A program made the position numbers and the translations under genes. Under the pieces are notes generated by a model, which was given only the letters and a program-made list of their open reading frames with translations, was not told the origin of the DNA and made no database searches. A stretch of 42,403 nucleotides of DNA from the NCBI GenBank assembly GCA_015663075.1, contig DQSV01000053.1, positions 1 through 42,403 on the forward strand. The letters are read 5' to 3'. This DNA is from Methanothermococcus okinawensis. Its GTDB lineage: Archaea; AGJL01; Methanococci; Methanococcales; Methanococcaceae. Of this stretch, positions 31,053-32,403 are shown piece by piece (position 1 is the stretch's first letter; each line of letters starts with the position of its first letter).

Positions 31053-31637
31053 TTACTTTCCTAATTTTTTATTTGCCCTAATACTTGGTCTTACTTTTTC
31101 AGCACCTTTACCCTTATTTCTTAATCCTCTACCTTTTTTACCTGCTGATGTTAATCCTCTAAATGCTCTACCCTTATGGGTTCCATTGCATAACCAATTA
31201 TACTTTGGATCTCTTTTAATTGAAGGATGATTTGGATCTACCAATATTACTTCGTACCATTTTCCCTTTCCATCTTCGCCTACCCAATAGGAATTTAATA
31301 CCTCCATGTTTGGATATTTCCTTGAGGCTCTCTCTTCTGCTATTCTTTGGATTGATTTAGCCATTGTAATCTTCTTTACTCCCAAGGTAGCGGGCTTTTT
31401 GGAACCTTTTGGCCTTGGTTTTCTTAGCCCTCCCCTTCTAACCTTAACTCTAACTACAATTATACCTTGTTTTGCCTTGTATCCTAATTTTCTGGCTTTA
31501 TCTATTCTTGTAGGTTTTTCAATCCTTACAACTGCAGGTTCCTTTCTCCACTCCTGCATTCTTGACCATAACAATTCCTTAACATAGGTTTTTTTTGGAG
31601 TTTTCCAGGCCTCTTTAACATACTTATACATACTCAT
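31053..31637 (-). CDS. rpl15e: 50S ribosomal protein L15e (eL15)
   Basis: Protein of 194 residues, the usual archaeal length. It has basic RNA-binding stretches: [20 protein letters not shown] at the start, [20 protein letters not shown] in the middle, and the C-terminal [20 protein letters not shown]. It sits in the large subunit near the exit region. The ATG at 31637 follows GGAGAT. It stands alone, not in a ribosomal operon, and is preceded by a long structured leader with its own TATA box. Confidence 0.95.
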
Positions 31638-31689
31638 AGTATCTCCTTTTTCATTCTTTTGCTTTATTTTTTCTCTAAAAAATTTTTAT

Positions 31690-31806
31690 TAGTTTAATCT
31701 CTGCAATCACTGTTTATGGGTTCAGCCCTTGGCCACATGCCCTACGGGTTTTATACCCGTCTCTGATACACTCTGTATAAAAATACTTAATAGGGTTTCC
31801 CTACAT
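31690..31806 (-). ncRNA. Structured RNA / leader upstream of L15e
   Basis: A G/C-rich island in very A/T-rich surroundings. On the minus strand, in order, it folds into TAGGG-AAA-CCCTA (31803-31791), ATACA-GAG-TGTAT (about 31781-31769), ACGGGT-ATAAA-ACCCGT (31760-31744), and a composite GGG...GGCC-AAG-GGCT...CCC (about 31742-31718). It ends about 50 nt before the L15e ribosome-binding site and begins just after a strong TATA box, so it is transcribed toward L15e. It could be an autoregulatory leader or a small RNA gene (H/ACA-like or new). It has no tRNA arms. Confidence 0.6.
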
Positions 31807-31823
31807 AGTATATTAATTTAACG

Positions 31824-31838
31824 GTTATTTATATATAC
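31824..31838 (-). promoter_or_regulatory. Predicted TATA box for the L15e leader RNA
   Basis: On the minus strand AGTATATATAAATAACC is close to the archaeal consensus. It would start transcription about 25 nt downstream, near 31806, at the first hairpin of the structured leader. Confidence 0.6.
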
Positions 31839-31986
31839 TGGTTGTATGATTATATTAATAAATAAAATATTTAATAATTGTTATATGTAAAACATAATGA
31901 ACATAAATTTATATAGTGCAATATTAATCTTTAAACATATCAGAATTATTTTGCAATAATTTCCATTTATTTTTTGGTGAGATACT

Positions 31987-32403
31987 ATGGATAATCAATA
32001 TGACTATGAGTTATTATTAAAAAGAGCCATTAGCCAACTTCCAGAGGAGGTATTTAAGGACGTAAGGTTTGAAGTTCCCTCTGCAGAGAGTTTTGTAGAG
32101 GGAAATAGAACAGTAATAAAAAATTTCAGAGATATTGCAAAGGTTATAAATAGAGATATCCAATTCTTTGCAAAGTATGTAATGAAGGAGTTAGGTACAG
32201 CAGGAGATGTTGAGGGCCAGAGATTATTACTTCAAGGTAAGTTTGGAAATTATATTATAAACAGTAAAATTAAAAATTTTGTGGAAGAATATGTATTATG
32301 TCCAGAATGTGGAAAACCAGATACTAAGATTATTAAGGAGGGCAGGATCCACTTCCTTAAGTGTATGGCCTGTGGAGCCATGAAACCCATTAGATTAATT
32401 TAA
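31987..32403 (+). CDS. eif2b: Translation initiation factor 2 subunit beta (aIF2-beta)
   Basis: Protein of 138 residues. The N-terminal helix (DYELLLKRAISQLPEEVF) contacts the gamma subunit. The alpha-beta core contains EGNRTVIKNFRDIAKVINRD and LGTAGDVEGQRLLLQGKF. The C-terminal zinc ribbon has CPECGKPD and CMACGAMKP. It is part of the aIF2 complex that brings initiator tRNA. aIF2-alpha is also in this window, at 35076, but transcribed from another unit. The ATG at 31987 follows GGTGAG. A TATA-like AAATTTATATAG lies at about 31905. Confidence 0.96.
   Translation: MDNQYDYELLLKRAISQLPEEVFKDVRFEVPSAESFVEGNRTVIKNFRDIAKVINRDIQFFAKYVMKELGTAGDVEGQRLLLQGKFGNYIINSKIKNFVEEYVLCPECGKPDTKIIKEGRIHFLKCMACGAMKPIRLI

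Follow-up and report, generated by a model that had tools for sequence, protein, structure and literature searches.

The structured RNA upstream of rpl15e in the window (the entire 42,403-nucleotide stretch analysed, from a contig of Methanothermococcus okinawensis) is a real, functional-looking element that belongs to the catalogued RF03144 leader family and is not a new kind of RNA. Judging from sequence comparison, it quite probably serves as an autoregulatory leader in the 5' UTR of rpl15e, through which free L15e would lower its own translation. A cmscan search, reported by E-value, matched positions 31714-31759 of the minus strand to Rfam RF03144, the eL15-Euryarchaeota ribosomal protein leader, with 30.9 bits and an E-value of 5.3e-4, and a whole-genome search gave 31.6 bits and 2.4e-4 for the same match. 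The alignment extended over positions 1-48 of the model, included both hairpins, was not truncated, and contained 0 flagged non-standard pairs. The gathering score of the family is 33.7 bits, and the window, at 30.9-31.6 bits, stayed below it; at 2.8 bits under the threshold, the cmscan match is missed by a default scan. Because G019 and G020, two genomes with the same architecture, reached 34.6 bits with RF03144, this is a miss at a curated threshold and does not mean that a structural feature is lacking. No Rfam family scored above its gathering score in the window, and the only other weak match, to snR78 on the plus strand, was rejected because its 21.2 bits fall far short of that family's gathering score, 48. 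No tRNA was found in the stretch by ARAGORN, in line with the preliminary description, which had noted the lack of a tRNA signature. That description had also taken the RNA for an unrecognised family and had named an Rfam hit as evidence against novelty; RF03144 is such a hit. Its suggestion of an L15e autoregulatory leader is well supported, as a predicted function, by the family match, by the conserved place directly before rpl15e in 30 of the 36 genomes of the order, and by the covariation described below.

The leader lies directly upstream of rpl15e (31053-31637, minus strand), the open reading frame of ribosomal protein eL15 (194 aa) and the regulated gene in the proposed reading, and it is on the same strand; the same arrangement was found in 29 relatives. 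The spacer containing it is bounded on the other side by a divergent gene (31987-32403, plus strand) that looks like aIF2 beta by sequence. A G/C-rich island, as described previously, was confirmed in this spacer, with a GC content of 0.43 at 31700-31799 compared with 0.12-0.28 at 31750-31949. The first of the two leader hairpins is P1 (31744-31760, minus strand), ACGGGU-AUAAA-ACCCGU, which is present in Methanococcaceae and not in Methanocaldococcaceae. The conserved core, hairpin P2 (31718-31742, minus strand), consists of an outer stem GGG/CCC, an asymmetric internal loop CAUGU/GAA, an inner stem GGCC/GGCU and a short loop, with covarying stems and invariant loop letters. It is followed on its 3' side by the A-rich strand AUAAACAG (31710-31717, minus strand), which is similar in Methanococcaceae, and an AYAAAC-like strand after P2 was also seen in Thermococcus. 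The Shine-Dalgarno sequence of rpl15e, read from the sequence, is GGAG at 31643-31646 (minus strand), and the distance from the end of P2 to the start codon (first ATG) is 80 nt. A single L15e orthologue was present in each of the 36 genomes of the order, with 77-98% identity in the relatives. The nearest named relatives of the window are Methanothermococcus sp. SCGC AD-155-C09 and AD-155-M21, with L15e proteins 97-98% identical.

Four consecutive hairpins had been proposed for this island. All four inverted repeats exist on the minus strand, but only two of them, 31744-31760 and 31718-31742, belong to the family; in the RF03144 alignment, these third and fourth hairpins fell on the model's own pair of hairpins. 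The other two, TAGGG/CCCTA and ATACA/TGTAT, are not part of it. The former, GTAGGG-AAA-CCCTAT (31790-31804, minus strand), occurred only in the window (G000) and in the near-identical G030 and G031, and the latter, the weak inverted repeat TATACAGAGTGTATC (31765-31779, minus strand), had the same restricted occurrence and was not conserved. Both were gone in G029 and G024, whose L15e proteins are 91-92% identical to that of the window. The repeat at 31790-31804 resembles a terminator in pattern only; it is outside the leader family and probably upstream of the transcription start.

The proof of the predicted leader structure is comparative and does not come from folding energy. The minus strand folded with a z-score of -1.36, which is not significant, since 22 of 200 shuffled sequences folded equally well, and the plus strand, slightly better at -1.76, was likewise not distinguished from shuffled sequence. 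Comparison of the spacers across Methanococcales, a check that had been proposed beforehand, showed that ACGGGU/ACCCGU and GGG..GGCC/GGCU..CCC are conserved and covary. Within the order, 94.3% of the alignment cells were paired and three pairs were altered on both sides, with a covariation score of 0.179 versus 0.113 for shuffled and at most 0.064 for slid alignments. For P1, five of the six base pairs formed in all 12 distinct relatives compared. Its third pair was G-C in 10 relatives and A-U in two, a compensated change found in G034 and G035, and its sixth was A-U or U-A in seven and unpaired in five. The covariation was strong over 22 euryarchaeal sequences from Methanococcales, Thermococcales, Methanobacteria, Methanosarcinales and others, in which 96.9% of the cells were paired, five of six pairs were altered on both sides, and the score was 0.567 versus 0.172 shuffled and at most 0.186 slid; these sequences were picked and trimmed by eye, which favours agreement of the loop letters and not compensating changes in the stems. 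The inner stem was GGCC/GGCU in the window, UCCC/GGGA in Thermococcus and GACU/AGUU in Methanosarcinales, and the letters AUGU and GAA, which face each other in the P2 internal loop, were invariant across all 22. The window carries the conserved AUGU/GAA internal loop and the covarying stems of RF03144.

The leader is far commoner in Methanococcales than the public Rfam model detects. Reading of the upstream sequences revealed the core AUGU-stem-GAAYCC before rpl15e in 30 of the 36 genomes of the order, including G009, whose variant core GGGGAUGUUGCC..GGCAGAACCC was missed by the first pattern. The RF03144 model itself matched four of the 36. R1, a covariance model for the P2 core that was made from Methanococcales sequences, scored 39-56 bits at a single place before rpl15e in every one of the 30 genomes, and its best match elsewhere in any genome was 23.4 bits. 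In the window, R1 scored 53.5 bits at 31710-31745, the window being in its training set. Because R1 was made from the same sequences, its scores tell us that the leader is unique and where it is placed, but they do not amount to an independent discovery; RF03144 is the independent witness. A phylum-wide search returned the same 36 genomes. In G034, the leader was found twice, on the ends of contigs C86 and C87, probably as an assembly overlap. Four R1 matches of 23 bits in G018 were rejected as leaders, since they fall inside a coding gene that is part of a tandem duplication. They lie on contig C1 at about 1057433-1073690 (L192) with a spacing of exactly 5405 bases, apparently a four-copy tandem amplification, and the first is within an open reading frame resembling a type II/IV secretion ATPase. 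Outside Methanococcales, RF03144 exceeded its gathering score upstream of L15e at six of 18 loci, from Thermococcus, Methanobrevibacter, Methanohalobium and Thermoplasmatota contigs.

Within the order, three arrangements of the 5' region were distinguished, and this order-level variation in architecture appears to be new. The 16 Methanococcaceae genomes with the leader carry both P1 and P2, at a distance of about 30-85 nt from the start codon; the window, for which this survey counted to a second ATG 6 nt after the first, is near the far end of that range. The 14 Methanocaldococcaceae genomes have P2 without P1, and in the 13 measured the gap between P2 and the start codon is 15-17 nt. Six genomes (G022, G025, G026, G027, G028 and G032) have neither hairpin, and a search for a hidden leader near their rpl15e genes gave no model match and only weak A/U folds. 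Their short 5' region keeps the promoter element. Because the six leaderless L15e proteins group together in the L15e tree, a single loss of the leader in this clade is suggested; the support is moderate (89/61), and the branching within the order is poorly resolved. The leaderless loci (L012-L017) also share the conserved string AAAACCA, located roughly where transcription is expected to begin, with a U-rich run after it.

Upstream of the leader, a conserved promoter element, CCGTTAAATTAATATA, was located at 31809-31824 (minus strand), and its exact form CCGTTAARTTAATATA was found in 29 of the 36 genomes. It occurred once per genome, before rpl15e, in 28 of them and twice in G034 (on two contigs, with the same leader), and near matches replaced it in most of the other seven; a control pattern, CCGTTAARTTAATATA read backwards, had 0 matches. 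No CCGTTAARTTAATATA-like element was found at the divergent control gene in 17 genomes, save the reverse complement of the rpl15e element where the two genes adjoin. Such conservation is unusual for a core promoter, as judged with one control gene. The order of GTTAAR and then TTAATATA is one that we take to be the BRE and TATA box of archaeal promoters. The element at 31809-31824 is therefore read as probably BRE plus TATA, which would place the transcription start at about 31783-31789, some 22-25 nt downstream and after the TAGGG/CCCTA repeat; if so, transcription begins past that repeat, and the RNA does not contain it. The TATA box recognised earlier, TATATATA at 31830-31837 (minus strand), is real, but comparison of the upstream sequences showed that it is not universal: a TATA-like sequence at this place was found in several, not all, Methanococcaceae and was missing from most other lineages. 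The main promoter is more probably the conserved core, and the upstream sequence may provide a second start site near 31806.

We infer L15e as the ligand, repression as the effect, and the regulated step as follows. When L15e is made faster than it is taken up by 23S rRNA, the excess free protein would bind the P1-P2 element of its own mRNA, with the AUGU/GAA internal loop of P2 as the likely recognition site, and would lower translation of that mRNA. Binding would cover or structure the Shine-Dalgarno region where this follows the element within a few nucleotides, as it does in most euryarchaea, Methanocaldococcaceae among them. Feedback by L15e is favoured because of the family, the association with a single gene, and the position of the motif near the Shine-Dalgarno sequence in most lineages; in Methanobacteria and Methanosarcinales, the leader adjoins it. 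With a spacing of 80 nt in the window, the case for simple occlusion of the Shine-Dalgarno sequence is weaker. Since the element in the window's lineage is separated from the start codon by about 80 nt, it would act at a distance there, by blocked ribosome loading, changed mRNA stability or early termination. No conserved switch partner for the Shine-Dalgarno sequence was found in the sequences compared, and helices that enclose the leader, or that join the stretch preceding P1 to the Shine-Dalgarno sequence, are possible in many sequences but were rejected since shuffled sequences equalled them (p 0.04-0.80, mostly 0.2-0.6). Against the leader reading counts the one six-genome clade that does without a leader.

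The same RF03144 leader might be recognised by a ligand other than L15e, such as another ribosomal protein or an assembly factor, or might be an element of mRNA stability or ribosome recruitment, a reading that we consider unlikely. Eckert and Weinberg (2020) predicted and described the family, with rpl15e listed as the sole regulated gene (PMC7247131); L15e was assigned as the ligand from this association, the binding of eL15 is a prediction only in that paper, and rRNA mimicry was called possible but unclear. In our sequence-level searches, mimicry of 23S rRNA was not found: nothing consistent came from matching literal strings, from scanning for internal loops with the strands in either order, or from the covariance model. 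In the 23S rRNA of Methanococcales, no convincing AUGU/GAA or AGUA/GAA internal loop was present, and the model matches were weak. A 23S match of 15.7 bits in G022 and G028 was rejected, as only AGGGGAUGU and CCCGUAAA were in common and the inner stem was not. These points leave room for a different ligand, but the element accompanies one gene only, both in 30 of the 36 genomes and in orders far removed from them, which is the usual pattern of self-control by ribosomal proteins.

Uridine runs end archaeal transcripts, and a U6 tract (31677-31682) lies between the leader and the gene in the window. Control at the level of transcription, in which bound L15e would stop RNA polymerase at this tract, is a still less probable account. 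The run downstream of the motif is present in the window, G030 and G031, but is not kept in G029, G024 and G023 or in relatives with shorter spacers, and Methanocaldococcaceae have no room for one; among the upstream sequences compared, no conserved U-run was found downstream of the leader. An independent small non-coding RNA lying beside rpl15e by chance, one of the possibilities first raised, would fit the leader's own promoter and compact fold but is very improbable, as the motif stays directly upstream of rpl15e in every carrier genome while the upstream DNA changes, keeps 15-17 nt from the start codon in Methanocaldococcaceae, and abuts the Shine-Dalgarno sequence in several orders.

Feedback by L15e would have a parallel in the same order. 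Ribosomal protein L1 of Methanococcus vannielii represses translation of its own mRNA (the L1 operon) at a site that mimics 23S rRNA and is inside the L1 coding region. Both cases concern an archaeal ribosomal protein and translation of its own mRNA, which for the L15e leader is predicted, but the L15e element is in the 5' UTR, its sequence is unrelated, and the sequence-level searches did not show 23S mimicry for it. The archaeal S15 and L4 leaders are likewise 5' leader RNAs before ribosomal protein genes, some of them followed by poly-U runs (PMC7247131); they differ from the L15e leader in structure and ligand, and rRNA mimicry is clearer in the S15 leaders. Compared with RF03144 itself, the window agrees in its position before rpl15e, the two hairpins, the AUGU/GAA loop, the covarying stems and the A-rich 3' strand, and differs in its short P2 loop, its score of 2.8 bits under the threshold, and its distance from the start codon, which is 80 nt and not close; the sister family Methanocaldococcaceae differs in having no P1. 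In the literature found, there was no experimental test of the predicted eL15 leader. The main text of PMC7247131 contains no word starting with "Methanococc", a paper on M. maripaludis operons mentions neither L15e nor leaders, and 21 ribosomal protein mRNAs with long 5' UTRs were reported for T. kodakarensis without L15e being named. This literature is extended by the survey across the order, by the three architectures and by the conserved promoter element, all of which are refinements.

An apparently unknown RNA is thereby taken off the list of unknowns, and the default Rfam scan is seen to miss the leader in most Methanococcales, with two of 36 genomes above the gathering score versus 30 of 36 in fact. 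Leader-carrying Methanococcus species are genetically tractable, which makes direct testing possible, and the leaderless clade provides a natural contrast. A tentative and somewhat doubtful wider reading is that one aptamer is wired to rpl15e in three ways within a single order, with a 16-nt promoter element common to all, which is perhaps a gene-specific transcriptional input. If the distant leader still represses, its output step must differ from that of the close version.
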